A DNA stretch of 64,000 nucleotides from positions 806,001 through 870,000 of the forward strand of contig CP000699.1 of assembly GCA_000016765.1 (NCBI GenBank). Direction: 5' to 3'. This DNA comes from Rhizorhabdus wittichii RW1 (lineage in GTDB: Bacteria; Pseudomonadota; Alphaproteobacteria; Sphingomonadales; Sphingomonadaceae). This document shows positions 4,671-22,153 of the stretch, piece after piece. The notes under the pieces were generated by a model. That model had not been told where the DNA came from, searched no databases, and worked only from the letters and a program-made list of their open reading frames with translations. The translations under genes were made by a program, and so were the position numbers. Positions within the stretch are counted from its first letter, which is position 1. Each line of letters begins with the position of its first letter.

Positions 4671-4838
4671 GACATTCCCCTTTCGCAATTGACGGGCCCT
4701 GCGAACTCGCGCCGGTCTATGCCGGGCTACGATGGGGAAGGTCTCAATTCGGGCGGCCGCCGACTATCCAGTATCCGCAGCCGATGTGCGTCATTGGTAC
4801 GAAACGGTTGGCGAGAAATGGATGACGGTTTTATTCGA

Positions 4839-6217: not shown

Positions 6218-6222
6218 GATCC

Positions 6223-7728: not shown

Positions 7729-7853
7729 TTCCACTCCTCAAGCCTTGCGAAAAAGATGCCGCAGCTAAGCCTCGGGGCGGACCGGCCGCTATCCGCAATG
7801 CGAAGCAGCCGTCCGCATCTCGCATCCTAAGCCGGGGGTGGCCGAAGCACCAC

Positions 7854-7866
7854 TTGACATTTCAAC
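7854..7866. promoter_or_regulatory. TTGA-N4-TCAA palindrome in the aldehyde dehydrogenase/araC divergent region
   Basis: TTGACATTTCAAC lies in the 227-bp gap between the divergent aldehyde dehydrogenase and AraC genes. It has the same TTGA-N4-TCAA plan as the two perfect copies upstream of iacH (21444, 21476), with three central mismatches. It may be an operator, or a -35 element (TTGACA) for the araC gene. No clear -10 is visible 17 bases away. Confidence 0.3.
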
Positions 7867-7955
7867 TAATTTGCATTGTCCTTCGCGTCCCGGCAGGCCT
7901 AGCCTCAGAACCGGCCTGAGCCGGCCACTGCCTGCACGGCGGGAGGAGGTGCGAT

Positions 7956-8948
7956 ATGCTGACCCTGGCACGAAACGACCCTCGCAAGGCGACGCGCGAT
8001 TTCCAGTCGAACGATCCGGGCGAGATCATCGACTATGTCGGCAAGACGCTGGCCCCGCACCGGATGGACATGGGCGATCCGTCGCGCATGTCCGCCAAGC
8101 TGAGCTGCATCGGCGTCGCGCCGACCCAGATCGTCGACATCCAGTACGGCACCGACGTCTGGATCGACCCCGGCGAGCTCGACGCGCATTTCCTGGTCCA
8201 TGCCTCGATCGAGGGGACCAGCGAGGTCTGGGCCGGCGGCTCGGAAGGCTCGATCCGCCCCGACAACCTCCACATCAGCTCGCCCGGCGCGCCGATCCGC
8301 ATCCACATGACGCCGGCCTGCCGCCACCTGACGGTGCGGATCGCCCGGTCGGCGTTCGAGGATTATCTGACCCGGATCATGAACATCCCGGCCAACCGGC
8401 CGCTGGTCTTCTATCCGGGCCGCGAATGCGGGCGCGAGCTGCCGGTCGTCTGGCGCAACCTGCTCAACCATCTGATCGACCAGACCAGCCATGGTCCGAT
8501 GCTGATGTCGAACAACCGGACCCAGCGCCAATATTCGATGCTGATGATCGAGCTGCTGCTGAGCAATTATTGCAACAGCTATTCGGACCAGATCGCGCTC
8601 TACGGCAACGACATCTCGCCCTGGCACGTCCGCCGCGCCCGCGACATCATCCACGCCTCGTTCGACGACAGCATCTCGGTCACCGATCTCGCCAACCAGG
8701 TCGGGGTGAGCGTCCGCAGCCTGCAGAACGGTTTCCGCCAGTTCCTGGGGCTGACCCCGGTCGAATATGTCCGGCGGCACCGGCTGGAGAAGCTCCACAG
8801 CGCGCTGATGGACGCCAGCCCCGAGGCGAGCGTGACCGAGCTGATGCTCGAATGCGGCATCGTCAATTTCGGCCGCTACGCGCAATATTACCGGCAGCAA
8901 TATGGCTGCCGCCCGTCCGAGACGCTGCGCAGCAGAAGGCCGTGCTGA
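7956..8948 (+). CDS. AraC-family transcriptional activator
   Basis: 330 residues. The first 200 or so resemble the AraC-binding-like domain seen in XylS and FeaR-type regulators. The last 90 form the double helix-turn-helix, with DLANQVGVSVRSLQNGFRQF as the first unit and LECGIVNFGRYAQYYRQQYG as the second. ATG is preceded by GGAGGAGG six bases away. It is transcribed away from the aldehyde dehydrogenase-amidase pair and probably activates that operon in response to its substrate. FeaR-like function is inferred from the layout, not proven by sequence. It ends next to a large palindromic repeat. Confidence 0.85.
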   Translation: MLTLARNDPRKATRDFQSNDPGEIIDYVGKTLAPHRMDMGDPSRMSAKLSCIGVAPTQIVDIQYGTDVWIDPGELDAHFLVHASIEGTSEVWAGGSEGSIRPDNLHISSPGAPIRIHMTPACRHLTVRIARSAFEDYLTRIMNIPANRPLVFYPGRECGRELPVVWRNLLNHLIDQTSHGPMLMSNNRTQRQYSMLMIELLLSNYCNSYSDQIALYGNDISPWHVRRARDIIHASFDDSISVTDLANQVGVSVRSLQNGFRQFLGLTPVEYVRRHRLEKLHSALMDASPEASVTELMLECGIVNFGRYAQYYRQQYGCRPSETLRSRRPC

Positions 8949-8955
8949 CCTCCTG

Positions 8956-9092
8956 AAATCCTCCCCATCGCAGATGGGGAGGGGGACCATCCGAAGGATG
9001 GTGGAGGGGTTTGGCGCGCAGCGCCAGCTTCGCTGTCGCACCCCTCCACCGCCTTCGGCGGTCCCCCTCCCCATCTGCGATGGGGAGGATTT
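8956..9092. repeat. Large palindromic intergenic repeat, family B
   Basis: The outer arms read AAATCCTCCCCATCGCAGAT and its complement at 9073-9092. Inside is a second stem around CACCCCTCCACC / GGTGGAGGGG. The total of 137 bases lies between the convergent AraC and flavin oxidase genes, overlapping the latter's stop codon by two bases. It can fold as a transcription terminator for both. No second full copy is in the window. Confidence 0.85.
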
Positions 9093-10446
9093 AGAATATC
9101 CGGCCCCGGTTCAATATCCCCTTGGGATCGAGCGCCGCCCGGATCGTCCGCATCATCGCGATTTCCGCGGCGCTGCGGCTATGGCCGAGCCAGGCGCGCT
9201 TGAGGATGCCGATGCCGTGCTCGGCCGAGACCGATCCGCCGGCCGCGCGCACCGCGTCGTAGACGATCGCCTCCGCCACCGGCCGCTGCGCCTCCTCGGC
9301 CAGTTCGAGCGCGAGGTGGAGGTTGCCGTCGGCGATATGGCCGAAGCAGATCGGCCGGCTGCCCGGCACCTCACTGGCCAGCCGCGCGCGCAGTTCGGTG
9401 ACGAGGCCGCCGATCGCGCCGATCGGCGCGCTGACGTCGAACGGCTCGACGATCGCCATCGCCCCGACCAGCTCGCCGACCGCGTCGCGGAAGCGCCAGA
9501 AGCGCTGGTGGTCGCGCTCCGACCGGGCGACCAGCGCGTCGCGCACCGTGCCGTCGGCGAAGCTCTCCTCCAGCGCCGCCGCCAGCGCCTCGTCGTCGCC
9601 GCTCTCGGTCTCGACGAGGACGACCAGTTCGTGTGCCGCGTCGAACGGATAGCCCTGCCCGCTGGCGACGCAGGCGGCGCCGAAGAAATCGCTCCACATC
9701 AGCTCATAGGCCGAGAGCTGGCCCGGCATCGCCCGTTCGAGCCGCGCCAGCAGCCGCACCGCCGCGGCATAGTCGGCGACGGCGCAAAGCGCGGTCTGCC
9801 GTCCGATCGCGGGCGGGCGCAGCCGCAGCACCGCGCGGGTGACGATCCCCAGCGTCCCTTCCGATCCGATGAAGAATTGCTTCAGGTCGTAGCCGGTGTT
9901 GTTCTTCAGCATCGCGCCGAGCGACGAGATGATCGTCCCGTCGGCGAGCACCGCCTCCAGCCCCAGCACCTGGTCGCGCATCATGCCGTAGCGCAGCACC
10001 TGGGTGCCGCCGGCATTAGTCGCGATCATCCCGCCGATCGTGCAGCTTCCGCGCGCGCCGATGTCGACCGCCAGCCGCCAGCCTGCGTCGGCCGCCGCCT
10101 GCTGCGCCACCTCCAGCACGCAGCCCGCCCCGACCGTCATCAACCCGGCATCGCTGTCGATCGCCTCGATCGCGGCCATGCGTTCGAGCGACAGGATCAG
10201 CTCGCCGTCGCGCGGCAGGCCGCCGCGCGTCATGCCGGTGCGGCCGCCCTGGACGACGACCGGCTGGCCGGCGGCATGGCAATGCCGCAGCACCGCCGCG
10301 ACCTGCTCGACCCCGGCGGGGCGGACCAGCCCGACGGGTCGCCCCGCCGCGCCGCCGGTCTCGTCGTCGAGATAGCGGGGCTCGACCGCGTCGGGCCCGA
10401 AGGCGTTGCCGGCGCCGACGATGGCGGCGAGCGCGTCGATGGTCAT
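9091..10446 (-). CDS. FAD-linked oxidase, GlcD/D-2-hydroxyacid dehydrogenase family
   Basis: 451 residues. The N-terminal FAD_binding_4 (PCMH) domain is visible from residue 40 or so (VVVQGGRTGMTRGGLP; GARGSCTIGGMIATNAGGT). The C-terminal FAD-oxidase_C domain holds FGHIADGNLHLAL and ends with SAEHGIGILKRAWLG and LDPKGILNRGRIF. Family members oxidise 2-hydroxyacids such as D-lactate or glycolate, or 2-hydroxyglutarate. ATG 10446 overlaps the upstream stop (TGATG), showing translational coupling to the 3-hydroxyacyl-CoA-dehydrogenase-like gene; a TTG one codon earlier is less likely. It is the last gene of a three-gene operon. Substrate unknown; an aryl-lactate would fit the neighbourhood but is speculation. 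Confidence 0.85.
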   Translation of the reverse strand: MTIDALAAIVGAGNAFGPDAVEPRYLDDETGGAAGRPVGLVRPAGVEQVAAVLRHCHAAGQPVVVQGGRTGMTRGGLPRDGELILSLERMAAIEAIDSDAGLMTVGAGCVLEVAQQAAADAGWRLAVDIGARGSCTIGGMIATNAGGTQVLRYGMMRDQVLGLEAVLADGTIISSLGAMLKNNTGYDLKQFFIGSEGTLGIVTRAVLRLRPPAIGRQTALCAVADYAAAVRLLARLERAMPGQLSAYELMWSDFFGAACVASGQGYPFDAAHELVVLVETESGDDEALAAALEESFADGTVRDALVARSERDHQRFWRFRDAVGELVGAMAIVEPFDVSAPIGAIGGLVTELRARLASEVPGSRPICFGHIADGNLHLALELAEEAQRPVAEAIVYDAVRAAGGSVSAEHGIGILKRAWLGHSRSAAEIAMMRTIRAALDPKGILNRGRIF

Positions 10447-11444
10447 CAATCCTCGCTATCGGCGAATTTCGGCATCAGGCCGCGCTGGCGCAGCAGCGCG
10501 ACGAAATCGGCGAGCCGGCCGCTGCGATAGGCGCCGACGTCGACACCGTCATAGTCGTAGAAGCCCGCCCCGTCGCGCAGCCCCCGCCGCGCCTGCGCCA
10601 TGTTCTCGCCGATGATCGCGGGAGCGGCGAAGCGGCCGGCGTCGATTGTCTCCGACAGGAAGGCGCTGGCATGGTGGAGGATGTCGCCCCCGCCCCAGTC
10701 GATGAACTCGAGCAGGCCGAGCACCGCGAAGCGCAGCCCGAAACCGACCCGGATCGCGGTGTCGATATCCTCGGGCGAGGCGACGCCCTCCTCCGCCATC
10801 CGCGCGGCCTCGTTCATCGCCAGCGCCTGGATGCGCGGCACGATATAGCCGGGCGAGGTGCGGCAGGTGACGGGCACCTTGCCGATCGCGGTCAGTATCT
10901 CGCGGAGCCGCGCCAATATCTCGGGCGCGGTGTCGGCCGAGGGCGACACCTCGACCAGCGGCATCAGATAGGCGGGGTTGAGCCAGTGCGCGTTGAGGAA
11001 GCGGTGCGGCCCCCTGACCAGCGGCGCCAGCGTATCGGCGTCGATCGTCGAGGTGGTCGAGGCGATGATCGCGTCGTCGCGGGCATGCTGGCCGACGAAG
11101 GCGAAGCAGTCGCGCTTGGCGTCGACCGTCTCGGGAACGCCCTCGAACAGCAGGTCGCACGCCGCGATCGCCGCCGGGGCGGCCCCTCGATCGGCGAAGC
11201 TGACGCGGCCGAGCGCGGCGGCGACCGCGCCTTCGTCCATCGCGCCGACCGACTTCAGGAAGGCGAAATCCTGCCCGATCTCGCGCAACGCCTCGGCCGC
11301 GAGCCGTTCGGCGGCCTCGGCGTCGCGCGGCTTGACGTCGATCAGGACGACCGCATGGCCGGCCAGCGCGAAGGCGACGGCGATGCCGCGCCCCATCCGC
11401 CCCGCGCCGACCGCGCCGATCCTGAGCGGCTCAGATGCCGTCAT
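10446..11444 (-). CDS. 3-hydroxyacyl-CoA dehydrogenase-family NAD-binding protein
   Basis: 332 residues with an N-terminal Rossmann fold (GAVGAGRMGRGIAV, residues 10-23) and a 3HCDH C-terminal domain (FGLRFAVLGLLEFIDWGG). The catalytic His region reads FLNAHWLNPAYLMPLVEV, in place of the HFFNP of true fatty-acid enzymes. This places it nearer the L-gulonate/carnitine 3-dehydrogenase or hydroxybutyryl-CoA dehydrogenase side branch, so the substrate may be a small hydroxyacid. It overlaps the opine-dehydrogenase-like gene upstream by 14 bases and the flavin oxidase downstream by one. It is not the paaH enzyme, which is at 25110. Confidence 0.75.
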   Translation of the reverse strand: MTASEPLRIGAVGAGRMGRGIAVAFALAGHAVVLIDVKPRDAEAAERLAAEALREIGQDFAFLKSVGAMDEGAVAAALGRVSFADRGAAPAAIAACDLLFEGVPETVDAKRDCFAFVGQHARDDAIIASTTSTIDADTLAPLVRGPHRFLNAHWLNPAYLMPLVEVSPSADTAPEILARLREILTAIGKVPVTCRTSPGYIVPRIQALAMNEAARMAEEGVASPEDIDTAIRVGFGLRFAVLGLLEFIDWGGGDILHHASAFLSETIDAGRFAAPAIIGENMAQARRGLRDGAGFYDYDGVDVGAYRSGRLADFVALLRQRGLMPKFADSED

Positions 11445-12513
11445 GCAGGAAATCCTTCATCGCGTTGCGGTCGAGCGTGTCGAGCCCGAGGCTTTCGAGC
11501 GTGCGGCCGGCGGCATAGAGGTCCTCGCCGGTGATCGCCGACGCCATGGCGAGCAGGCCGGAGGCGACCGGGGTCTCGACGCCCAGCCAGCGGCCGATCG
11601 ACACCAGCATCGACAGGCCGAGCGCGGTATCCTCGCGCATGTAGCGATGCGTCTTGAGATCGATCTTCTCGCGCCAGTCGCCGCTGTCGGTCAGCTTCTC
11701 GTGCGCGGCGTTGCCGTACATCCATTCGTCGCCGTCGAGGGTGTAGTGATCGGCGAGCGGGAAGTGCGGCGCGCGATAGCCGAGCGCCTCGCGCAGCACG
11801 ATCCGCTCATTGTCGAGCGCGGTGGTGACGGCGCGGATCGACGGCTGGGTGCCTTCGTTGTGGATGTCCCAGGCCGGGAAATATTCGAGCGGCCCGGCAT
11901 TCATCAGGATCAGCGGCGGGTGGATGATCGGCCCGGCGTTCATCAGCCCGCCCGACAGCCCGTCCTCGATCCGCTCGATCGCCGGATAGACCTGTTCGAG
12001 CAGCCCGAAGGCATGGTCGGCGTTGCGCGCCGGGAACACGCCGGTCGGCAGGCGGGTGGCATAGGCGCTGACGACGATCTCGGCCGGACCGTGCTTGCGC
12101 ACCAGATAGGGCAAGGTGCCGGTCTCGGCGAAGCTGACGTCGGCGCTGTTGCCGGCCGCGCGCGCCGCCTGCGCGAACAGGATCGAGCCGAGGGTGCCCG
12201 GCGGCAGGAAGGCGACCTGCCCGTCACGCCAATAAGGCGCGCAGGCGACGGCCAGGTCCGCATGGGTGTCGGCCGGCAGCGGGATCACGACGACCTCGGC
12301 CGAGGTGATCGCCTCCTCCAGCGACAGCGTCGGGTGCGCGATCGCGACCTCGCGGTCGCCCCTGGAGTCGCGGATGCGGATGCCGCGCTTCTCCAGCACC
12401 GGCGCGAACGCCTCGGCGCCGCGGCGCCAGAACCAGACCTCATGGCCCTTCTCGCTCAGTTCAACCGCCGCCGCGTAGCAGCCATGTCCCCCGCCCAATA
12501 CCGCGACACGCAT
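11431..12513 (-). CDS. NAD/NADP octopine/nopaline dehydrogenase-family protein
   Basis: 360 residues from ATG 12513, where the Rossmann motif begins immediately (MRVAVLGGGHG) and GGGAG lies 9 bases upstream; an ATG 12 codons earlier is unlikely. The C-terminal half matches the Octopine_DH domain, with the His-containing GPIIHPPLILMNAGPLEYF and the N-rich loop around GDEWMYGNAAHEKL. Known members join or split an amino acid and a 2-oxoacid by NAD(P)H-dependent reductive condensation. Here it is the first gene of an operon with a 3-hydroxyacyl-CoA-dehydrogenase-like protein and a 2-hydroxyacid oxidase, facing an MFS transporter. This suggests catabolism of an imported opine-like or hydroxyacid compound. 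Inference only. Confidence 0.75.
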   Translation of the reverse strand: MRVAVLGGGHGCYAAAVELSEKGHEVWFWRRGAEAFAPVLEKRGIRIRDSRGDREVAIAHPTLSLEEAITSAEVVVIPLPADTHADLAVACAPYWRDGQVAFLPPGTLGSILFAQAARAAGNSADVSFAETGTLPYLVRKHGPAEIVVSAYATRLPTGVFPARNADHAFGLLEQVYPAIERIEDGLSGGLMNAGPIIHPPLILMNAGPLEYFPAWDIHNEGTQPSIRAVTTALDNERIVLREALGYRAPHFPLADHYTLDGDEWMYGNAAHEKLTDSGDWREKIDLKTHRYMREDTALGLSMLVSIGRWLGVETPVASGLLAMASAITGEDLYAAGRTLESLGLDTLDRNAMKDFLHDGI

Positions 12514-12693
12514 TCCCGAATTCTCCCATGGATCGATGTCTGCGAGCATTTGTGCCGGACACGGCCGCCGCCACTATACGCTATCGGCAGGGTTGATCCG
12601 CAATCTGCAGCAATGTCGCGATGCCCTTTCCGGCGAGGATTGACAGGCAATGGCGCGCCGGGCCCTCATCGCCGCACGGATGGCCTATCTTTA

Positions 12694-12764: not shown

Positions 12765-14078
12765 ATGCAGCCGGACGAACGACGGGGATGGTATGTCGTC
12801 ATCCTGTGCATGACGGCCTATATCTTCTCGTTCATCGACCGGCAGATCCTCGCCCTGCTGATCGCCCCGATCCAGGCCGACCTCGGCATCACCGACACCC
12901 AGTTCGGCCTGCTCCACGGCCTCGCCTTCTCGCTGTTCTACGCGACGATGGGCATTCCGGTCGCCAGCCTGTCGGACCGCGCCTCGCGCCCGCTGATCAT
13001 CGCGATCGGCGTCGCCTTCTGGAGCGCGGCGACGATGGCCTGCGGGCTGGCGCGCAGCTTCCTGTCGCTGTTCCTCGCGCGGATCTGCGTCGGCGCAGGC
13101 GAGGCGGCGCTGTCGCCCGCCACCTATTCGCTGATCAGCAACCTCTTCCCGCGCGAGAAGCTGGGTCGCGCGGTCGCGGTCTATTCGCTCGGCTCCTTCC
13201 TCGGATCGGGCATCGCCTTCCTCGCCGGCGGCGCGGTGATCGCGATGGTCAGCGGCAGCGACGGCATCACCCTCGCCGGCATCGCCTTCCGGCCATGGCA
13301 CCTCGCCTTCCTGATCGTCGGCGCGCCGGGCGTGCTGCTCGCGGCGATCATCTTCCTGACGGTCCGCGAGCCGCTGCCGCCCGCCGCCCGCGCGGGCGCA
13401 GCCGACCATCCCTCGCTGAAGGCGGTGCTCGCCTTCCTGGCGCGCGAGCGGGCGATCTTCGTGCCGCACATGCTGGGCTATACCTTCGCGGCGATGGCGC
13501 TGTTCTCGCTGCTCGGCTGGTCGCCCGCCTATCTGATGCGCGTCCATGGCGTCGATCCCGCCGCCTCGGGGCTATGGCTGGGCGTCGTCACCGTCGTCGC
13601 GGGCGGCGGCGGCGTGCTCGCCAGCGGCTGGATCATGGATCGGCTCGCCAGCCGCGGCGTCGCGGATTCGCCGTTCCGCACCGGCATCATCGGGGCGCTG
13701 GGGACGATGCTGCCCGCCGCCGCCCTGCCCTTCGCGCCGTCCTTCGGGGCGGGGATGGCGCTGCTCGCGGTCGCGCTGTTCTTCGCCTCCTTCCCGATGC
13801 CGCCGTCGACCGCCGTCATGCAGATCGTCGCGCCGGCCGCGATGCGGTCGCGGGTCGCGGCGATCTTCCTGTGCAGCAATTCGCTGATCGGCCTGACGCT
13901 CGGATCGCTGCTGGTCGGCCTGCTCAACGACCATGTGTTCGCCGGCAAGGCGGCGGTCGGCAGCTCGCTCGGCATCGTCGTCGCGGGCGCCTCGATCGTC
14001 GCGGCGGGGTTGCTGGCGTTCGGATGCCGGCCCTATGCGGATACGCTCGCGCACCGGCCGGCCCATGGCGCGGCCTGA
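12765..14078 (+). CDS. Major facilitator superfamily transporter
   Basis: 437 residues with about twelve hydrophobic segments. The MFS loop 2-3 signature is present as ASLSDRASRPLIIAIG, and the central loop (REPLPPAARAGA) splits two six-helix halves. It lies in the inner membrane. ATG is preceded by GAGGAG seven bases upstream. The promoter region carries a site almost identical to one before iacA, so the likeliest cargo is an indole-3-acetate-like acid. The divergent opine-dehydrogenase operon is the other candidate partner. MFS permeases are known companions of iac loci (iacT-type), but no sequence feature here fixes the substrate. Confidence 0.85.
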   Translation: MQPDERRGWYVVILCMTAYIFSFIDRQILALLIAPIQADLGITDTQFGLLHGLAFSLFYATMGIPVASLSDRASRPLIIAIGVAFWSAATMACGLARSFLSLFLARICVGAGEAALSPATYSLISNLFPREKLGRAVAVYSLGSFLGSGIAFLAGGAVIAMVSGSDGITLAGIAFRPWHLAFLIVGAPGVLLAAIIFLTVREPLPPAARAGAADHPSLKAVLAFLARERAIFVPHMLGYTFAAMALFSLLGWSPAYLMRVHGVDPAASGLWLGVVTVVAGGGGVLASGWIMDRLASRGVADSPFRTGIIGALGTMLPAAALPFAPSFGAGMALLAVALFFASFPMPPSTAVMQIVAPAAMRSRVAAIFLCSNSLIGLTLGSLLVGLLNDHVFAGKAAVGSSLGIVVAGASIVAAGLLAFGCRPYADTLAHRPAHGAA

Positions 14079-14122
14079 CCGGAATGCGGACGTTTCCTCT
14101 TCCGGGAGGCCGTATAAATTAG

Positions 14123-14146
14123 TTGCCTTTTCAAGTGATATGTTTA
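14123..14146. promoter_or_regulatory. Operator-like site upstream of iacA, twin of the MFS site
   Basis: TTGCC-T-TTTCA-A-GTGA-T-AT matches the site at 12694-12717 at all but three of its first 18 bases. It lies 44 bases before the iacA start codon. A MarR-family regulator is encoded at the end of the iacA-iacB-iacE transcript, and auxin-catabolic loci are known to be controlled by MarR proteins. Assignment to that protein is inference. Confidence 0.45.
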
Positions 14147-14189: not shown

Positions 14190-15350
14190 ATGGACGCCAA
14201 GGAGCAAGTGAAGCCCGAACCGAGCGACCGGACGGCCGCGCTGGAGACGCTGCTGTCGGCGGCGCGCGCGCGCCGCGACGAGTTCAGCGCCAACCAGCAG
14301 ATCAGCGCCGACGTCGTCGAGATGATGAAGGCGGCCGGCGTCTATCGCGCGATGGTCGCCAAGCGCTTCGGCGGCGACGAGAAATCGCCCGCCGAGTTCC
14401 TGCGCCTGATCGAGACGATCTCGCAGGCCGACGGATCGGCCGGCTGGGTCGCCAGCTTCGGCTTCTCGGCGGTCTATCTCTCGGCGCTGCCGATCGAGAC
14501 GCTCGAGGCGATGTACGCCAACGGCCCCGACGTGGTGTTCGCGGGCGGCATCTTCCCGCCGCAGAAGGCGGTGCCGGTCGACGGCGGGCTCGAAGTGTCG
14601 GGCCGCTGGAGCTGGGGCAGCGGCTGCACCGGCGCCGAGGTCATCGGCGTCGGCATCAAGGTCGAGGGCGGCGGATCGAACGGCGGCCTACCGCTGATCG
14701 CGGTGACCCCGGCGAAGAACGTCCAGATCGTCCCCAACTGGGACGTCATCGGCATGCGCGGCACCGGCAGCCATGACATGGTGCTCGACAAGGTCGTCGT
14801 GCCCGAGGCGTGGACCTTCGTACGCGGCGGCAAGTCGAGCCTCGACACCCCGCTCTATCGCTATCCGTCGATGCCGCTCGCGGCGCAGGTTCTGGCGGTG
14901 GTCGGCCTCGGCATCGCGCGCAGCGCGCTCGACCAGATGATCGCCCTGGCCGGCGGGCGGACCTCGATCACCGGCCAGCCGACCCTGGCCGACCGTCCCT
15001 ATGTCCAGACCGACATCGCCAAGGCGGAGGCGGCGCTGCGATCGGCCCGCGCCTTCTTCTACGAGATCACGGAAGAAGCCTATGCGACGCTGGTCGCGGG
15101 CGACGAGCTGAGCGTCGAGACCCGCGCCCTGCTCCGCCTCGCCTCGACCAACGCGGCGCGCGTCGGCGCCGACATCACGCTCGACATCTACCGCATGGCC
15201 GGCACGACCGGCGTCTTCGCCAATCACTGGATCGCGCATCTGATGCAGGATGCGCAGGTCATCCCGCAGCATGCCTTCCTCGCCGATACCACCTGGCAGA
15301 ATGCCGGCAAGGTGCTGCTGGGTCTCGAATCCCCTCCCGGATATCCCTGA
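14190..15350 (+). CDS. iacA: IacA-like flavin-dependent monooxygenase (acyl-CoA dehydrogenase fold)
   Basis: 386 residues of the acyl-CoA dehydrogenase fold, group D flavin monooxygenases (HsaA, HpaB-type, IacA). Visible are WVASFGFSAVYLSALP in the helical N-domain, SGRWSWGSGCTGAEV and GMRGTGSHDMVLDKVVVPE in the beta domain, and YRMAGTTGVFANHWIAHLMQDAQV near the C-terminus. In Pseudomonas putida 1290, IacA starts indole-3-acetic acid breakdown by oxidising the indole ring. Such enzymes need reduced flavin from a separate reductase, which is not encoded here. ATG has AGGAG eight bases upstream. It is the first gene of the iacA-iacB-iacE-marR transcript, downstream of an operator shared with the MFS gene. 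The iac assignment rests on the whole neighbourhood. Confidence 0.8.
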   Translation: MDAKEQVKPEPSDRTAALETLLSAARARRDEFSANQQISADVVEMMKAAGVYRAMVAKRFGGDEKSPAEFLRLIETISQADGSAGWVASFGFSAVYLSALPIETLEAMYANGPDVVFAGGIFPPQKAVPVDGGLEVSGRWSWGSGCTGAEVIGVGIKVEGGGSNGGLPLIAVTPAKNVQIVPNWDVIGMRGTGSHDMVLDKVVVPEAWTFVRGGKSSLDTPLYRYPSMPLAAQVLAVVGLGIARSALDQMIALAGGRTSITGQPTLADRPYVQTDIAKAEAALRSARAFFYEITEEAYATLVAGDELSVETRALLRLASTNAARVGADITLDIYRMAGTTGVFANHWIAHLMQDAQVIPQHAFLADTTWQNAGKVLLGLESPPGYP

Positions 15351-15368
15351 ACTGGAAAGGACGACTTC

Positions 15369-15728
15369 ATGACCACCGAGAAACAGCGTCTTCGCGTCCT
15401 CTTCTGCGGCGCGGTGCTGCAGAATTTCTTCGATCTTCCCGCCAACGACATCGGCAAGGTGTGGGCGGCGACCGGCGAGATGCTGAAGGGCATCCGCGAC
15501 CTGCCCGGCGTCGAGATCCTCGGCACCATCGACGACGACCAGACGATGGTCGGCACCTCGCCGACCGGCTGGCCGTGGACCTTCTACATCCTCGCCGAGG
15601 TTCCCGATCGCGAGACCGCCGTCGCCGCGTGCAACCTGTTCCGCACCATCGAGGTCGGCGAATATCGCCTGTGGAAGTATATGCGGGTCGAGGCGCGGAT
15701 CGGCCGTGAGCTGGTGATCCCGGCATGA
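15369..15728 (+). CDS. iacB: IacB-like small protein
   Basis: 119 residues, soluble, with no signal peptide. It resembles the small conserved protein IacB that follows IacA in indole-3-acetate clusters: an alpha/beta-looking chain with aromatic-rich segments (GWPWTFYILAEVPD; GEYRLWKYMRVEARIG). Its fold suggests a ferredoxin-like small-molecule-binding or dimeric barrel protein; the biochemical role is not established. It lies 18 bases after iacA, with AAGGA seven bases before its ATG, and overlaps the next gene by 4 bases (ATGA), so it is co-translated with the SDR gene. Confidence 0.7.
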   Translation: MTTEKQRLRVLFCGAVLQNFFDLPANDIGKVWAATGEMLKGIRDLPGVEILGTIDDDQTMVGTSPTGWPWTFYILAEVPDRETAVAACNLFRTIEVGEYRLWKYMRVEARIGRELVIPA

Positions 15729-16480
15729 CGCAGGGCAACGGCGGCGACGTCGTCCTCGTCACCGGCGGCGCGAGCGGCCTGGGCGCGGCGATCGCGCGCG
15801 GGATGCACGAGCGCGGCTTCCGGGTCGGCATCGGCGATCTCGATGCCGCCGCCGCTTCGGCGCTGGCGGCCGAGCTCGACCCGAGCGGGGCGACCGCGAT
15901 CGGCATCGCCCTCGACGTGCGCGAGCAGGCCTCGTTCGAGGCGGCCCGCGACGCGCTGACGGCGCGCTGGGGATCCGTCGAAGGGCTGGTCAACAACGCC
16001 GCCGCCACCGCCGCCAGGCCGGTGCTCGACATCACCCCCGACGAGTTCGACGCGGTGATGGCGGTCAACGCGCGCGGCACCTTCGTCGGGTCGCAGGTGT
16101 TCGGCCGGGTGTTCAAGGCGCAGGGCTATGGCCGCATCGTCAACCTCGCCTCGCTCGCGGGGCAGAATGGCGGGACGGCGACGGGCGCGCATTATGCCGC
16201 GTCGAAGGGCGCGATCCTGACCCTGACCAAGGTGTTCGCGCGCGACCTCGCCGCCTTCGGCGTCACCGCCAACGCGATCGCGCCGGGGCCGCTCGATTCG
16301 CCGATGGTCCACCGCACCATCTCCGAAGAGGCGATGCCGCGCTTCCTGGAGAATATCCCGGTCCGCCAGCTCGGCACGCCCGCCTTCATCGCCGACATCG
16401 CCGCGCGCCTGTGCGCCCGCGACGCCGGCTTCGTGACCGGCGCCACCTGGGACATCAATGGCGGCCTCTTCATGCGCTGA
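15725..16480 (+). CDS. iacE: SDR-family oxidoreductase, probable IacE
   Basis: 251 residues. It has the classical short-chain dehydrogenase layout: the TGGASGLGAAIARG nucleotide loop, the LVNNAA structural motif, the catalytic Ser/Tyr/Lys region (NLASLAGQNG, then YAASK), and a C-terminal VTGATWDINGG. It uses NAD(P)(H). In iac loci IacE acts next to IacA on the oxindole intermediate. The gene overlaps iacB (ATGA) and precedes a MarR gene by 67 bases. The family call is firm; the iacE label depends on the position between iacB and the regulator. Confidence 0.75.
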   Translation: MTQGNGGDVVLVTGGASGLGAAIARGMHERGFRVGIGDLDAAAASALAAELDPSGATAIGIALDVREQASFEAARDALTARWGSVEGLVNNAAATAARPVLDITPDEFDAVMAVNARGTFVGSQVFGRVFKAQGYGRIVNLASLAGQNGGTATGAHYAASKGAILTLTKVFARDLAAFGVTANAIAPGPLDSPMVHRTISEEAMPRFLENIPVRQLGTPAFIADIAARLCARDAGFVTGATWDINGGLFMR

Positions 16481-16547
16481 GCCGCGCCGGCCCGCATCCG
16501 TGAAAACGAGCTTGCGCGGCCGGCAAAAGGGGGAGAGAGCGACGAGC

Positions 16548-17021
16548 ATGATGGACAACGCCCTGCGTGACAGCCCTCCCCCCGACGCGACCGGGTTCGA
16601 CCCGCACGACTGGCCGTTCTTCTGGATGACGCAGGCGGTGGGCCGCTATCTCCAGCGGCTGGAGACGGCGCTGAAGCGGGTCGAGCTCGACGTGTCGCGC
16701 TGGCGGGTGCTGATGTGCCTCAAGGAAGGCCAGGCGACGAGCGTGAGCGAGATCGCCGAACTGGCGATCGTCAAGCTGCCGACCATGACCAAGATCGTGC
16801 AGCGGATGCAGGCCGACGGCCTCGTTACCTGCGAGGCGCGGGCGTCGGACGGGCGAGTGACCGAGGTGTCGCTGACCGATCGCGGCCTCGCCGCGCGGCA
16901 GGAGGCCTGGACGATCGCCAACAAGCTCTACGTCCAAGCTTTCCGCACCATCGCGGACGACGACAAGCACCGCCTCAACCGGCTGGTGGAATCGATCTTC
17001 AACAATCTCAGCGAGTGGTGA
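16548..17021 (+). CDS. iacR: MarR-family transcriptional regulator (IacR-like)
   Basis: 157 residues; ATG 16548 or the adjacent ATG 16551 may start it, after a GGGGGAGAG tract. The winged helix is visible as SVSEIAELAIVKLPTMTKIVQRMQADGLV followed by the wing GRVTEVSLTDRG. The N-terminal WPFFWMTQAVGRYLQRLE helix is shared with the second MarR at 21543, so the two are paralogues. It is last in the iacA-iacB-iacE transcript. MarR repressors that respond to indole-3-acetate control known auxin-degradation loci, so it probably senses the pathway substrate and binds the 14123/12694 or 21444/21476 sites. Which MarR binds which site cannot be decided by reading. Confidence 0.8.
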   Translation: MMDNALRDSPPPDATGFDPHDWPFFWMTQAVGRYLQRLETALKRVELDVSRWRVLMCLKEGQATSVSEIAELAIVKLPTMTKIVQRMQADGLVTCEARASDGRVTEVSLTDRGLAARQEAWTIANKLYVQAFRTIADDDKHRLNRLVESIFNNLSEW

Positions 17022-17026
17022 TCACT

Positions 17027-17048
17027 CCCCGGGGCGTCAGCCCCGGGG
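17027..17048. terminator. Bidirectional hairpin between marR and the hydratase gene
   Basis: CCCCGGGGC, four bases, then GCCCCGGGG form a perfect 9-bp GC stem between two convergent genes. It overlaps the hydratase stop codon (17037-17039). There is no T-run, so it is either an intrinsic terminator of weak type or a transcript-end stabiliser. Confidence 0.6.
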
Positions 17049-17828
17049 CGCCGCCTTGACCACGGTGCAGGCGATCGCGCCGAACGCGCCGAAATCGGCG
17101 GTGCAGCGCTGGCCGATGCGGACGACATGGACGCCGGTGATCGCGCCGGTCGAGATCAGGTCGCCCTTGCGGATCGACCGGCCCATCCGCGCCGTGCGGG
17201 CAAGCGCGAAGGCGAGCGCCGCGATCGGCGTGCCGGGGATCGCGCTGGCCGCCGCCTCCCCCGCCACCGCGCCGTCGATCGTGGTGGTGCAGCGGATCGC
17301 ATCGAACGACAGAGCGCGCCAATCCGCGATACCGGCCCCGAGGATCAGGCCGTTATTGCCCCCGAAGCTGGCGATCGTGGTGAGCGGGCCGAGATCGTTG
17401 GCCGCCGCGAACGGGCCGCCCGCCACCTCGACCGCGATGTGCATCGCGCCCGCCAGATCGGCCGCCTCGTCGGCGGTCCAGTCGGTCTTGCCGGCCGGGG
17501 CATCGGCCGAGGCGACGATCACCAGTTCGGCCTCGAACGCCGAGAAGCCGTTCTCGATCGCGGCGAAGTCGTTCGCCGCGCCGGCGCTCAGCACGGTGGC
17601 GGCGAAGATCGGGCCGACGAACCGGTCCTCGCCGAACGTCTCGACCAGCGGCGGCGCGATCCGGCCGACCTTCCAGCCGGCGATCCGATCGGCCCATTGC
17701 CCGATCTCCGCCGACTGGACGGCATAGGCCTGGTCGAGATCGGCCGGCAGCGGGCCGGGATAATCGGGAAAACCGATGGCCGCGCTGCGGGCCTCGACGA
17801 ATTTCGCCGCCTGTGTTTCGACGCTCAT
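17037..17828 (-). CDS. 2-keto-4-pentenoate hydratase-family protein
   Basis: 263 residues from ATG 17828. It belongs to the fumarylacetoacetase-fold hydratases (MhpD/DmpE/HpcG type). GWKVGRI opens the active-site domain, the metal-binding Glu region reads AFEAELVIV, and GGNNGLILG and GDLISTGAITGVHVVRIGQ follow. Such enzymes add water to 2-hydroxydienoates in meta-cleavage pathways, or are the decarboxylases of that family. It is last in the iacH-I-C-D direction, separated from iacD by a palindromic repeat. The classical iac route ends at catechol and does not need it, so its presence suggests the ring is later opened by meta cleavage, or that the enzyme has another role. Confidence 0.7.
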   Translation of the reverse strand: MSVETQAAKFVEARSAAIGFPDYPGPLPADLDQAYAVQSAEIGQWADRIAGWKVGRIAPPLVETFGEDRFVGPIFAATVLSAGAANDFAAIENGFSAFEAELVIVASADAPAGKTDWTADEAADLAGAMHIAVEVAGGPFAAANDLGPLTTIASFGGNNGLILGAGIADWRALSFDAIRCTTTIDGAVAGEAAASAIPGTPIAALAFALARTARMGRSIRKGDLISTGAITGVHVVRIGQRCTADFGAFGAIACTVVKAAPRG

Positions 17829-17875
17829 GGACCTCGCCTGCTGCCTTTCCGGATTCGATGTAAACCCCGATCCTT

Positions 17876-17970
17876 CCGTCATTCCCGCGAAAGCGGGAAT
17901 CCACGGTCACGGAACATTCCTTCTCCTGCGGGCCGCCGTCCATGGATTCCCACTTTCGCGGGAATGACGG
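17876..17970. repeat. Palindromic intergenic repeat, family C
   Basis: The arms are CCGTCATTCCCGCGAAAGCG and its imperfect complement ending at 17970, each itself a hairpin (TTCCCGC-GAAA-GCGGGAA). It separates iacD from the hydratase gene and could attenuate transcription between them. Confidence 0.75.
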
Positions 17971-18002
17971 GACGGTGCTGGAAACGGCGGCCTGCTCAAG
18001 GA

Positions 18003-18518
18003 TTAGAGAAGATAGCCGATACCATGCTGGTAATCGTCGCAATTGACCAGCGTGACGATCTTCCGGTCGAGCTTCAGCCCGTCGGCGGTCGAGACGATAC
18101 GGTAGACGACGTCGGCCGCCATGGTGCGCATCCGCTCATATTTATACTCGACCATGATCATCGCCGCGCGCAGCGTGATCGCGCCGTCCTCGACCACGAC
18201 CGGCACGAAGCGCGAGACGGTGCGGACGGTGCGGGCCGGCGGCGCCGACGACATCGAGAAGCCCGACAACAGCCGCTTGACGCGCGCCTGCCGCATCTCG
18301 GCATCGTCGTTGAGGATGTTGAGCCGGTCGTCATAGTCGCTGATGTCGCGCTCGGTCGGGACGATGTAGCGGCCGTCCTCGGTCCACAGCGGCAGCCAGG
18401 CCTTGTAGTCGAGCCGGTCGAGCATGTCGGCCTCGGCCCAGACGAACTGGATCGCGTCCTGCAGCGACGGCGCCGCCGCCGCGTCGGAACGGTTCAGGGG
18501 TTCAGCGATCGTGCTCAC
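18003..18518 (-). CDS. iacD: Ring-hydroxylating dioxygenase beta subunit, IacD-like
   Basis: 171 residues from GTG 18518, which overlaps the alpha-subunit stop as GTGA; a GTG seven codons upstream is possible. It has the NTF2-like beta-subunit fold: AIQFVWAEADMLDRLDYKAWLPLW, TEDGRYIVP, ISDYDDRLNIL, and the C-terminal VYRIVSTADGLKLDRKIVTL. The beta subunit is structural and binds the Rieske alpha subunit in an alpha3beta3 oxygenase. Directly after iacC, it should be the partner that gives the iac pathway its ring dioxygenase. No reductase or ferredoxin gene accompanies the pair here. Confidence 0.85.
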   Translation of the reverse strand: MSTIAEPLNRSDAAAAPSLQDAIQFVWAEADMLDRLDYKAWLPLWTEDGRYIVPTERDISDYDDRLNILNDDAEMRQARVKRLLSGFSMSSAPPARTVRTVSRFVPVVVEDGAITLRAAMIMVEYKYERMRTMAADVVYRIVSTADGLKLDRKIVTLVNCDDYQHGIGYLL

Positions 18519-19771
18519 GCGGTCATCATCCTCTTCCACATCTGATAGGCGGCGCGCATGCCGGTCTCGGCGCTGACGTCACCGGCATTATGCCCCGGGG
18601 CGGCGACGCCCTCGGGCGCGTCGACACCGCGATTGACCATGACCCACAGGTCCTGGCCCGCGCGCGCGCCGCGCTGGACGCGCTCCCAGCCCTCGGCATC
18701 GTCGGGGGTGCCGAAGCCCATCGGGCCCTGGAAATGCTCGTGCAGGCGCAGCCGCATGCGGTTCGCCGCATCCGGGCCGCCGTCCATGCCGATCGCGACG
18801 TGCATGATCTCGGTCTCGTCGACCTCGATCGGCCGCAGCACGCGGAAGAAGGCCATCGAGCAGGCGACGTTGGGGAACAGGTTCAGGTTGAAGCCCGAGC
18901 CGCCGACGGCGCGGACGACGCGGCGCACCTGGTCGTCGGGCATGCCCTCGGCCGCCAGTTCCTTCGCCAGTTCCTCGAAACGCTGCGGGATCGGCGCGTC
19001 GAGATTGTCCTCGAGGTCGATCAGGTCGGGGATCATGACCATCACGCTGTGGCCGTTGCCCAGATCCTCGACCCAGCCGCCATGCGCCAGCACCTGGAAG
19101 ACGTTCTCCGCTTCCGGATCGAGCGAGTCGAGGAAGGTCTTGTGGACGATCGGGAAGTGATAGGCGTCGGTGGTGTTCTCGAGCTGGATCTTCCAGTTGC
19201 CGGGGAAGCGGAAGCGATGCTCGCCCAGCGTCTTCACGCCGTAGCCGCCGCCCTGCTTCATGAACAGGTCGATCCACTTCTTCGCCGAGCCGAGGAACTC
19301 GACCAGCGGCTGGATGTCGTCCTTGAAGGTGGCGAAGATCATCCCGTTATATTCTTCGGTGCGCAGCGACACGAGGCCGTAGTCGTCGGTGTCGAGCCCC
19401 TCGCCATAGCCGCTGATGTGCGGCACCTTGCGGAGCTTGCCGTCCACGTCATAGCTCCAGCCATGATAGGGGCAGACGAACACGCTGGCCTTGCCCTTGC
19501 GCTTCTCGCACACGCTGGCGGCGCGGTGGCGGCAGCGGTTGAGCAGGGTGTGGATCTTGCCCTGCTTGTCGCGGGTGACGATCACCGGCTCGCGGCCGAC
19601 CCAGGAGGTCTTGAAGGTGTTGCCGGTCGGCACGTCGCTGGCGTGCGCCACCCAGACCCAGGTGTTCTTGAAGATCCGGTCCATCTCCTCCTCGAAGATG
19701 GCCTCGTCGGTGTACATCGGCGTCAGGACACGATCGTCCCGCACCAGGGTGGCGAAGTCTGTGCTGCTCAT
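18515..19771 (-). CDS. iacC: Rieske aromatic ring-hydroxylating dioxygenase alpha subunit, IacC-like
   Basis: 418 residues. The Rieske [2Fe-2S] ligands are Cys80 and His82 (CRH) and Cys100 and His103 (CPYH). The mononuclear iron site reads DAYHFPIVH with His205 and His210, and Asp202 as the bridging residue. This complete set marks an active oxygenase component. In iac loci IacC/IacD dihydroxylate the oxidised indoleacetate intermediate on the way to catechol. AAAGGAG precedes its ATG, which overlaps the iacI stop (ATGA). The order iacH-iacI-iacC-iacD is tightly coupled. Electrons must come from a reductase encoded elsewhere. Confidence 0.85.
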   Translation of the reverse strand: MSSTDFATLVRDDRVLTPMYTDEAIFEEEMDRIFKNTWVWVAHASDVPTGNTFKTSWVGREPVIVTRDKQGKIHTLLNRCRHRAASVCEKRKGKASVFVCPYHGWSYDVDGKLRKVPHISGYGEGLDTDDYGLVSLRTEEYNGMIFATFKDDIQPLVEFLGSAKKWIDLFMKQGGGYGVKTLGEHRFRFPGNWKIQLENTTDAYHFPIVHKTFLDSLDPEAENVFQVLAHGGWVEDLGNGHSVMVMIPDLIDLEDNLDAPIPQRFEELAKELAAEGMPDDQVRRVVRAVGGSGFNLNLFPNVACSMAFFRVLRPIEVDETEIMHVAIGMDGGPDAANRMRLRLHEHFQGPMGFGTPDDAEGWERVQRGARAGQDLWVMVNRGVDAPEGVAAPGHNAGDVSAETGMRAAYQMWKRMMTA

Positions 19772-20319
19772 GATGGCTCCTTTGACGCAACGTCAGGGAC
19801 GGAGATGGGGGCGGCGTCGGACCAGTGGTCGACGTCGCGGGCGAAGAGGTTCTCGGTGATGAAATGGGATATCCGCCAGGCGCCGTCCTCGACGGCGCAG
19901 CGGATCGTCAGCGCGGCCGAGCGCAGGTCCGACCGGCCGTCGCGATAGGTCGAGGTCTGCAGCATCGACCATTGGCCGACCGCCGCCTCGGGCCCCTCGG
20001 TCGTGCCCTCGATCGTGATCGTCTCGGTCGACAGGAAATGCGCGTTCATCGCGAAATGGGCAACCGGCACGGCATAGCTGCCGAGCATCGCGACGATCGC
20101 GTCGCGGCCCTCGTGCCGGCCGAACGCCTTGCGGTAGCGGCCCCGCCCTTCCCACAGCGCGTCGCGGGTGAAGCACAGGCCGAGATCGTCGAGCGAGGTA
20201 TCGGGACCCAGCGTGTCGCACAGCCGGAAATAGCGCATCACGACGGCGCGCACCGCACGCTCGGCGCGCAGGTCGGCCAGTTCGGCGCGGAGCGCCGCGA
20301 TGTCCTGTTCGATCGTCAT
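19768..20319 (-). CDS. iacI: SnoaL/NTF2-like small protein, IacI-like
   Basis: 183 residues. It has an N-terminal coiled helix (IAALRAELADLRAERAVRAV) and then an NTF2-like domain: VMRYFRLCDTLG, DALWEGRGRYRKAFGRHEGRDAI and AHFLSTETITIEGTTEG. These proteins are small isomerases, hydrolases or dioxygenase-beta relatives. Its place between amidase and alpha subunit matches iacI, which sits next to iacC in the Pseudomonas iacHABICDEFG order; its role there is not established. The start is fixed by a 4-base overlap with the amidase stop (ATGA). Confidence 0.7.
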   Translation of the reverse strand: MTIEQDIAALRAELADLRAERAVRAVVMRYFRLCDTLGPDTSLDDLGLCFTRDALWEGRGRYRKAFGRHEGRDAIVAMLGSYAVPVAHFAMNAHFLSTETITIEGTTEGPEAAVGQWSMLQTSTYRDGRSDLRSAALTIRCAVEDGAWRISHFITENLFARDVDHWSDAAPISVPDVASKEPS

Positions 20320-21428
20320 GCCGCGAGGCCCTGCTCGATGCGCGCGCCGACCGCGCAGAGCGTCTCGTCGTCGTTGCGGCGGCCGACGAGCTGGATCGCG
20401 ATCGGGCGGCCGGCGAGCGGGATCGCCAGCGCCGGATGGCCCGAGACGTTGAACGGCCGGATCAGCGAGGTCAGGCGCAGCATCCGCGCAGCATCGCCGA
20501 GATCGTCGAGCGCGGGCGGCAGCGCCGGCAGGGCCGGGAGGGCGAGTGCGTCGACCCCGGCGAGCGCCTGGTCGACCGCCGCGACGAAGCGGGTGCGGAC
20601 CTTCTCCGCCTCGGCGAGCTGGGCGGCCGAGACCTTGCTCGCGCCGAGCAGCCGGGCGCGGACATCGGCGCCGATCCGGGGGTCCTCGACGAGATCGCCG
20701 AAGGTCGACCAGGCTTCGGCCGCCATGATGGTGATGCCCGCCTCGAACGCCTGGCCGAGGCCCGGCAGATCGACCGGAACGACATCCGCTCCGCTGCGCC
20801 GCAGTTCGGCGAGGACGGCCTCGGCGATCTCGGCGTCGGCCGAGCTCTCGACCCAGCCGATGCGGACCGATGCCGGCCGGCCGGCGGGCACGAAGGTCGG
20901 GTCGATCAGCGCCATCGCCGTCTCGATTCCCGCCACGTCGCGCGCGAAGGGGCCGACGCAGTCGAGGCTCGAATCGGCCGGGATGCAGCCCTCGCGGCTG
21001 ACCCGGCCGAAGCTGGGCTTCAGGCCGAACACGCCGCAGCAGGTGGCGGGCATGCGGATCGAGCCGCCGGTGTCGGTGCCGATCGCGATCTCGACGAGCC
21101 CCGCCGCGACAGCCGCGGCCGATCCGCTCGACGAACCGCCGGGGATCAGGCCGGGATAATTGGGGTTCACCGGGGTGCCGAGCCAGCGGTTCACGCCGGT
21201 CACGCCATAGGCGAACTCGTGCATGTTGGTCTTGCCGACGATGCGCGCGCCGCCCGCGATCAGCGCGGCGACGACCGCCGCGTGCGCGGCCGCCGGCGGC
21301 GCTTCGGACAGCGCCTCGCTGCCGACGCTGGTGCGCTTGCCGGCGATGTCGATGCAATCCTTGACCGCCACCGTCGGACCGGCGCCGCCAAGCTCGAACC
21401 GTTCGACGAAGATGTTGTCCGACGTCAC
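20316..21428 (-). CDS. iacH: Amidase-signature hydrolase, IacH-like
   Basis: About 370 residues from GTG 21428, chosen because GAGGGG lies six bases upstream and because it leaves both TTGAATATTCAAC operators outside the gene; an ATG 12 codons earlier would put one inside. The Lys-Ser-Ser triad is seen in TVAVKDCIDIAG, IPGGSSSGSAAAVAAG and TDTGGSIRMPA. In iac clusters IacH is the amidase, assumed to open an amide-containing (oxindole or anthranilate-like) intermediate. It is the first gene of the minus-strand arm iacH-I-C-D and faces the second MarR gene across a 114-bp control region. Confidence 0.75.
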   Translation of the reverse strand: MTSDNIFVERFELGGAGPTVAVKDCIDIAGKRTSVGSEALSEAPPAAAHAAVVAALIAGGARIVGKTNMHEFAYGVTGVNRWLGTPVNPNYPGLIPGGSSSGSAAAVAAGLVEIAIGTDTGGSIRMPATCCGVFGLKPSFGRVSREGCIPADSSLDCVGPFARDVAGIETAMALIDPTFVPAGRPASVRIGWVESSADAEIAEAVLAELRRSGADVVPVDLPGLGQAFEAGITIMAAEAWSTFGDLVEDPRIGADVRARLLGASKVSAAQLAEAEKVRTRFVAAVDQALAGVDALALPALPALPPALDDLGDAARMLRLTSLIRPFNVSGHPALAIPLAGRPIAIQLVGRRNDDETLCAVGARIEQGLAA

Positions 21429-21443
21429 CCTCAGCCCCTCAAC

Positions 21444-21456
21444 TTGAATATTCAAC
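21444..21456. promoter_or_regulatory. MarR-type operator 1 (TTGAATATTCAAC)
   Basis: A perfect palindrome TTGAATATTCAA lies between the iacH ribosome-binding site and its promoter. A second identical copy is 32 bases away, three helix turns, so both lie on one face of the DNA. Such AT-rich palindromes of 12-20 bp are typical of MarR dimers, and a MarR gene is divergent here. Confidence 0.6.
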
Positions 21457-21475
21457 CTATCCATAGCATGTCGAG

Positions 21476-21488
21476 TTGAATATTCAAC
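21476..21488. promoter_or_regulatory. MarR-type operator 2 (TTGAATATTCAAC)
   Basis: The second exact copy of the 13-mer, spaced 32 bases centre to centre from operator 1 and 55 bases before the second MarR start. Together they probably give autoregulation of the regulator and repression of the iacH arm. No second base pattern in the gap competes with this reading. Confidence 0.6.
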
Positions 21489-21542
21489 CAGATTGTCGCC
21501 GCCGCCTCGGGCGGATAGAGAAGGAGGCGAACGGAGAAACCA

Positions 21543-22019
21543 ATGACCGCGAAGCATGACAAGAAGGCCCCGGTCCGCGACGAGCGGTTCAACTACCGGA
21601 GCTGGCCCTTCTACTGGATCGCCCGGGCGAGCGGGCGCTATCGCGGCCGGATGGAGGAGATGCTGCGCGGTACGACGCTCGACATGCCGCGCTGGCGGGT
21701 GCTGATGACGCTCCATCAGGACCGGGTCGCCAGCGTCAGCGAGATCGCCGCGCATTCGAGCGAGAAGCTGCCGACGATGACGCGGATCATCCAGCGGATG
21801 GAAGCCGACGGACTCGTCCGCCGCCGCCCCCGGCCGGGCCGCGAACATGTCATGGAAGTGGTGCTGACCGACGCGGGCGAGGTCGCCGGCAACGAGGCCT
21901 GGGCCTGCGCCGATTCGATCTACGGCCAGGCCTTCGCCGGGATGACCGACGCCGAGCTGGAACAACTCACCGGCCTGCTCCAGCGGGTGGCGGAGAATCT
22001 GAAGGCGTCGGGGGAGTAA
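21543..22019 (+). CDS. Second MarR-family transcriptional regulator (IacR paralogue)
   Basis: 158 residues. The winged helix is SVSEIAAHSSEKLPTMTRIIQRMEADGLVRRR with wing HVMEVVLTDAGE. The N-terminal helix WPFYWIARASGRYRGRMEEML matches the paralogue at 16548, as does the LDMPRWRVLM segment. GGAGAAACCA precedes the ATG. It is divergent from iacH and shares with it a gap holding two perfect TTGAATATTCAAC palindromes. It most likely represses iacH-I-C-D and itself, with an indole-acid ligand. It could instead act on the adjacent paaZ side, but that gene is convergent and separated by repeats. Confidence 0.85.
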   Translation: MTAKHDKKAPVRDERFNYRSWPFYWIARASGRYRGRMEEMLRGTTLDMPRWRVLMTLHQDRVASVSEIAAHSSEKLPTMTRIIQRMEADGLVRRRPRPGREHVMEVVLTDAGEVAGNEAWACADSIYGQAFAGMTDAELEQLTGLLQRVAENLKASGE

Positions 22020-22039: not shown

Positions 22040-22133
22040 ACCGTCATGCTGAACTTGTTTCAGCATCCACCCATCATCCGCACTGTCGCGGCTTGTGGCA
22101 CGGTGGATGCTGAAACAAGTTCAGCATGACGGT
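22040..22133. repeat. Perfect 32-bp inverted repeat, family D
   Basis: The arms at 22040-22071 and 22102-22133 are exact complements (the left begins ACCGTCATGCTGAACTTGTT), with a 30-base loop. It lies between the convergent MarR and paaZ genes and can form a long hairpin at both transcript ends. Confidence 0.85.
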
Positions 22134-22153
22134 ATTCAACCTATTGAAATACC
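22131..22153. terminator. Short palindrome abutting the paaZ stop
   Basis: GGTATT-CAACCTATTG-AAATACC lies directly after the paaZ stop codon and contains TTCAA-N4-TTGAA. It repeats the 12-mer TATTCAACCTAT of iacH operator 1. It may be a weak terminator or an extra MarR site. Evidence is only the palindrome and the shared 12-mer. Confidence 0.35.

Follow-up and report, generated by a model that had tools for sequence, protein, structure and literature searches.

The 64 kb stretch of Rhizorhabdus wittichii RW1 DNA analysed here (the window, C1:806001–870000; coordinates are window positions unless marked C1) carries a set of genes resembling the iac genes for catabolism of indole-3-acetic acid (IAA), in a genome composed of one chromosome and two megaplasmids (PMC4911050). 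As a yardstick for identities we used the annotated cluster on a Klebsiella variicola plasmid (locus L018, order R-H-A-B-I-C-D-E-F-G). The forward arm consists of iacA (14190–15350, +), encoding a predicted group D flavin monooxygenase (indole-3-acetate oxygenase) with 51% identity to canonical IacA, iacB (15369–15728, +; 56%), iacE (15725–16480, +; a short-chain dehydrogenase/reductase, 54%) and the regulator gene marR1 (16548–17021, +; 37% to the canonical MarR). The reverse arm runs from iacH (20316–21428, −; an amidase-signature protein with a GTG start and a GGSSSG motif, 50%) through iacI (19768–20319, −; NTF2/SnoaL-like, 40%), iacC (18515–19771, −; Rieske dioxygenase alpha subunit, 65%) and iacD (18003–18539, −; the beta subunit, Ring_hydroxyl_B, 38%) to a hydratase gene (17037–17828, −; alternative start at 17882), and because the iacH-I-C-D reading frames overlap by a few bases they are suggested to form one operon. 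Both the Rieske motif CRH-X17-CPYH and the iron site NTTDAYHFPIVH are present in IacC, and all iac reading frames are intact. A second regulator gene, marR2 (21543–22019, +; 33%), lies beyond iacH. The first-pass annotation had recognised this gene set (iacA, B, E, C, D, H and I with two MarR genes), with iacA-B-E-marR on the forward and iacH-I-C-D on the reverse strand, and we find every gene in place and nine proteins matching the canonical cluster at 33–65% identity; its description of the arms as divergent has to be corrected, as they converge, meeting at 17021/17037, and iacH and marR2 alone form a divergent pair.

By sequence comparison we assign the locus to the iac-like loci for IAA catabolism, in their sphingomonad form. 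IacA, IacB and IacE occur together, IacC and IacD are adjacent and carry their motifs, IacH and IacI are both encoded, and the regulators are of the IacR type; a complete cluster of the Pseudomonas putida 1290 type, with iacF and iacG within the locus, is not present, and published use of 'iac-like' does not require these two genes. For both MarR proteins the best PDB match is 7KUA, the IAA-binding regulator IacR of P. putida (E = 3e-34 for marR1 and 1.5e-29 for marR2), with the Variovorax-type IadR (7KFO) far weaker (5e-11 vs 3e-34), and an iad-like locus was rejected for want of an IadR-type MarR. An IacA tree groups the window protein with those of R. histidinilytica UM2 and of Sphingomonas sp. 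Y57 and Root720; the group falls within a clade of sphingomonad proteins (96/96) that lies among the IacA proteins of other iac clusters. The earlier reading of iac rather than steroid enzymes is supported by this tree and by the score of IacA against the steroid-type HsaA monooxygenase model (149 bits, 300 bits short of the cut-off of 450); p-hydroxyphenylacetate-type and DszC-type monooxygenases were also rejected, with scores far under cut-off.

Chance can be excluded as the origin of this arrangement because UM2, Y57 and Root720 keep the iac block in the same gene order, and IacA, IacB and IacE are 90–99% conserved across these three relatives. The Sphingomonas strains Root720, Root50 and Root1294 are reported to degrade IAA and to possess iac-like operons that include two MarR genes (PMC11630574). 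Root720 (L034) resembles the window in gene order, the two MarR genes and the hydratase, and its IacA is 91% identical to that of RW1, with no further IacA match in that genome at E ≤ 1e-60; it differs in that only a C-terminal part (residues 324–436) of the major facilitator superfamily (MFS) transporter encoded upstream of iacA aligns (L034 7740–9817), so that this gene looks broken or replaced in an IAA degrader. The transcriptomes of the same study covered no Sphingomonas, and its text takes up neither the lack of iacF nor the palindrome and aldehyde dehydrogenase operon described below.

The core of the locus is already known and had been recognised in outline before. RW1 was named as an iac carrier by Leveau and Gerards (2008), as cited in PMC7372246, and the homologues meant are very probably those of the window; in the open-access literature we found no analysis of their gene order, regulon or reductases. 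With the clusters of P. putida 1290 and Enterobacter soli LF7 (iacHABICDEFG plus iacR) the window shares iacA, B, C, D, E, H, I and an IacR-type MarR, but it differs in having two convergent arms, two MarR genes, an attached hydratase, no iacF or iacG, and a palindrome common to iac and an aldehyde dehydrogenase/amidase operon. With the Variovorax iad loci (iadA-E, IadR) it shares Rieske dioxygenase alpha and beta subunits and MarR control, the window regulators matching IacR far better than IadR. What we add to this core is the lineage-wide absence of iacF and the palindrome common to iac and the putative precursor operon.

The first-pass annotation had reported that iacF and iacG are missing from the locus, and indeed the sole IacF-like match in the window (26%; 31059–31979) lies beside paa genes. 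The absence of iacF stands but is no peculiarity of RW1, since it is the rule in sphingomonad loci: among loci with complete iacABCDE, iacF occurs in none of 16 from Sphingomonadales vs 29 of 29 from elsewhere (Gammaproteobacteria, Rhodobacterales, Rhizobiales, Azospirillum and Actinomycetota; Fisher value 1.5e-12, in which independence is overstated as the loci are related). Six of these 16 loci do retain iacG. A search of the rest of the RW1 genome, as had been proposed, returned three IacF relatives, all tied to other oxygenases (one reductase encoded 6 bases behind a VanA-type oxygenase and two P450-fused reductase domains), so that an unlinked IacF orthologue was rejected; the nearest IacG-like protein (C1:4515065) is 35% identical. 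Because the three IacF relatives adjoin or sit within other oxygenases, IacCD probably shares the dispersed ferredoxins and reductases of the lineage. Scattered through the genome are 21 Fer2 domains as well as three reductases of the BphA4 type, and the RW1 dioxin dioxygenase draws on dispersed Fdx1 and RedA2 (PMC3425912). The earlier proposal that the strain borrows its reductases is thus plausible and unproven.

The regulation of the locus is suggested by a MarR-type palindrome. The interval between iacH and marR2 holds TTGAATATTCAA twice in perfect form (expected number 0.10 when as many as two mismatches are allowed), and a weight matrix for the palindrome ACTTGAATATTCAAGT, trained solely on sites of other genera, places predicted MarR operators at ACTTGAATATTCAACC (21442–21457, score 30.0) and AGTTGAATATTCAACC (21474–21489, score 23.0) in this interval, at AGTTGCCTTTTCAAGT upstream of iacA (14121–14136, score 15.8) and at ACTTGACATTTCAACT between an aldehyde dehydrogenase gene and an AraC-type regulator gene (7852–7867, score 15.8). 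These four promoter sites rank first in the 64 kb, the next best score being 4.4, and simulated sequence gives at most 0.03 matches per 64 kb at their scores. The site at 7852–7867 is conserved in UM2, Y57 and Root720. In other genera, where the matrix was trained, ACTTGAATATTCAAGT or a close form precedes iacH (three Novosphingobium loci and genome G147), iacA (Sphingobium CECT 9361) and the aldehyde dehydrogenase gene (G147, and G259 with a 72% enzyme). At up to one mismatch the 16-mer is found in 7 of the 298 genomes sampled in the order, with three copies in G147 alone, which belongs to another family: one is at iac and two are in a region 2 Mb distant that encodes orthologues of the aldehyde dehydrogenase (71%), the TonB receptor, the octopine-type dehydrogenase, the 3-hydroxyacyl-CoA dehydrogenase and an MFS transporter. 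This unlinked recurrence is the strongest evidence that the accessory genes would belong to the same regulon. The palindrome is not exclusive to iac, as two of the loci in the matching genomes (L133, L134) lack part of the iac set, and no reductase gene was found under it in the RW1 genome at up to one mismatch. A third exact TTGAATATTCAA at C1:4800408 (L089 9409), a short way ahead of where a TonB receptor gene likely starts, has different flanks and lies far from iac, and we do not claim it as a regulon site.

The locus also reaches beyond 14190. Upstream of iacA lies the gene of the MFS transporter (12765–14078, +), a candidate IAA uptake protein with 45–46% identity to the product of the MFS gene adjoining the Acinetobacter baumannii iac cluster (L019) and a 62% counterpart beside iac in G059, and the common operator would bring in the operon 7734–305. 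Its first gene (6223–7734, −) encodes a phenylacetaldehyde dehydrogenase-like (StyD-type) aldehyde dehydrogenase (NF045735, 719.9 bits, cut-off 850, other models far lower), followed by an amidase gene of uncertain start codon (4946–6262, −) with indoleacetamide hydrolase as its best model (NF005688, 367.6 bits, cut-off 532, next best 197). Downstream are genes for a TonB-dependent outer-membrane receptor (2428–4688, −; Pfam TonB_dep_Rec_b-barrel and Plug), for a small protein with a leader like that of twin-arginine translocation substrates (1858–2373, −; MTMTSLSMTRRGAVRGIALAATIPFA), which has no Pfam match and a 67% orthologue in L117 and is likely the partner subunit of the next enzyme, and for a GMC-family flavin adenine dinucleotide (FAD) dehydrogenase (305–1861, −; Pfam GMC_oxred_C/N). 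In the sphingomonad genome G248 (L117) the whole operon is joined to iac, with an 84% orthologue of the GMC dehydrogenase in the same gene order, and in G147 the TonB receptor and aldehyde dehydrogenase have a pyrroloquinoline quinone (PQQ) alcohol dehydrogenase as their neighbour. On plasmid pNL2 of Novosphingobium aromaticivorans the flanks of iac encode a quinoprotein of the methylamine dehydrogenase type, a TonB receptor, an aldehyde dehydrogenase with 66% identity and enzymes of the beta-ketoadipate pathway; the methylamine-dehydrogenase-type, cytochrome c and TonB receptor genes adjoining iac there (L017 872–7065) possibly serve tryptamine or phenylethylamine.

Between this operon and the MFS gene lie an AraC-family regulator gene (7956–8948, +; Pfam AraC_binding_2 and HTH_18, closest NCBIfam model AndR), in favour of which the overlapping reading frame 7905–9074 (−) was dropped, and an operon of three genes assigned to a GlcD-type FAD-linked oxidase (9091–10449, −), a 3-hydroxyacyl-CoA dehydrogenase family protein (10446–11444, −) and an octopine/nopaline dehydrogenase family protein (11431–12549, −; Pfam Octopine_DH). 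The latter two have orthologues at the palindrome-bearing region of G147, where that of the octopine-type enzyme (64%, L131) is beside the aldehyde dehydrogenase. On the other side, paa genes adjoin the locus from 22154 onwards, the RW1 paa cluster being Swit_750-758 (PMC3425912). Two long imperfect inverted repeats at 17880–17970 and 22045–22135 (GTCATTCCCGCGAAAGCGGGAATCC... and CGTCATGCTGAACTTGTTTCAGCATCC...) are intergenic and resemble dispersed palindromic repeats.

The hydratase (Pfam FAA_hydrolase; MhpD 1sv6, E = 7.5e-12), which the first-pass annotation had described as attached to the locus, belongs to the 2-keto-4-pentenoate hydratase (MhpD) superfamily. Because it is linked to iac in genomes G059, G248 and G190 too, we regard it, on this conservation, as a real component of the locus in the lineage; in G002 it occurs near iac-like genes. 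A plain catechol meta-cleavage hydratase was rejected, since DmpE/DmpH-type models match only weakly and intradiol dioxygenases are encoded elsewhere in the genome. It may process the four-carbon 2-oxo acid leaving when IacCD frees catechol, a guess to which we attach little weight.

RW1 encodes two further IacA homologues. One is part of a second iac-like cluster (L021 10666–16422, C1:4605665–4611421) in the order A-B-I-H-C-D-E, which also has no iacF or iacG and adjoins genes for an AraC regulator, an extradiol dioxygenase and an alpha/beta hydrolase; its IacA is at most 47–52% identical to any found and has no close copy in the sampled genus relatives. The other (47%; L023 15962–17092, C1:4734961–4736091) is preceded by an Asp/Glu racemase-family gene and followed by a Rieske oxygenase gene.

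The overall best explanation of the window, to which we assign a probability of roughly 0.8, is a sphingomonad iac-like IAA locus together with a precursor operon under a common palindrome. By analogy to homologues, IacA supplied with reduced flavin would convert IAA to 2-oxoindole-3-acetate, IacE would yield 3-hydroxy-2-oxindole-3-acetate, and IacCD with IacB, IacH and IacI would lead onward to catechol by steps known or proposed from homologues. Electrons for IacCD would come from unlinked ferredoxins and reductases, and a flavin reductase encoded outside the locus would provide IacA with its flavin. Either or both of the IacR-type MarR proteins would bind ACTTGAATATTCAAGT and repress three promoters, those of iacABE-marR1, of the iacHICD/marR2 pair and of the TonB receptor/arylacetaldehyde dehydrogenase/indoleacetamide-type amidase/GMC dehydrogenase operon. 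From the common operator we infer an auxin-precursor regulon in which this operon would feed indole-3-acetaldehyde, tryptophol and indole-3-acetamide into IAA catabolism, a link for which we found no paper in the open-access literature.

Several points weigh against this explanation. The case made for RW1, be it IAA use, operator binding or expression, is one of sequence comparison throughout; the sites at iacA and the aldehyde dehydrogenase score lower than the pair between iacH and marR2; Y57 and Root720 have the iacA site in imperfect form; and no site of this form is present at the sphingomonad iac loci of pNL2, G024, G059 and G248. Additionally, the aldehyde dehydrogenase and the amidase score under the curated StyD and indoleacetamide hydrolase cut-offs, which makes the substrates of the operon guesses, and phenylacetaldehyde is as likely a substrate, with paa genes next door. 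This leads to the main rival, in which iac acts on IAA while the operon serves phenylacetaldehyde or phenylethylamine catabolism via paa, the palindrome being read by a regulator common to phenylacetate-type and indoleacetate-type acids. The StyD-type match and a paa cluster beginning at 22154 speak for it, but the amidase is closest to indoleacetamide hydrolase, and the stretches examined in G147 and G248, where the operon accompanies iac or the iac operator, showed no paa genes; we consider it the less likely reading, though the most serious contender.

Less probable still is that the locus degrades another indole acid or related heterocycle with IAA as a side substrate. IacA and IacE accept indole-propionic and indole-butyric acids, those of C. 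glathei are promiscuous (PMC7225977), and the second iac-like cluster with its extradiol dioxygenase is encoded in the same genome, but Root720, with its 91% identical IacA, the same gene order and no other IacA match at E ≤ 1e-60, degrades IAA. A decayed cluster that makes no catechol would account for the absence of iacF and iacG and of any unattached IacF orthologue, yet we judge it very improbable, as the frames are intact, the conservation of IacA, IacB and IacE in the relatives is high, and iacF is absent from all sphingomonad loci checked, including that of the IAA-degrading Root720.

Building on the auxin-precursor regulon, we tentatively propose, at somewhat less than even odds, a sphingomonad funnel in which one IAA-responsive MarR operator would switch on IAA catabolism together with an exchangeable entry step in the periplasm. 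At that step the GMC dehydrogenase in the window, the PQQ alcohol dehydrogenase in G147 or a tryptophan-tryptophylquinone amine dehydrogenase on pNL2 would oxidise arylethanols or arylethylamines and deliver aldehydes to the conserved arylacetaldehyde dehydrogenase and so IAA to the Iac enzymes, removing tryptophol, indole-3-acetaldehyde, indole-3-acetamide and tryptamine besides IAA.

That iacF is absent across the lineage points to an Iac dioxygenase working without the reductase it normally has, and RW1, with dispersed ferredoxins and a reductase that have already been characterised, makes it possible to test where the electrons come from. The palindrome offers a handle for finding auxin regulons in other genomes, as in G147, where its matches sit at iac and at the unlinked aldehyde dehydrogenase region. 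Auxin-degrading root bacteria influence root growth, and if the regulon is real, sphingomonads would remove auxin precursors besides auxin itself, under one switch.

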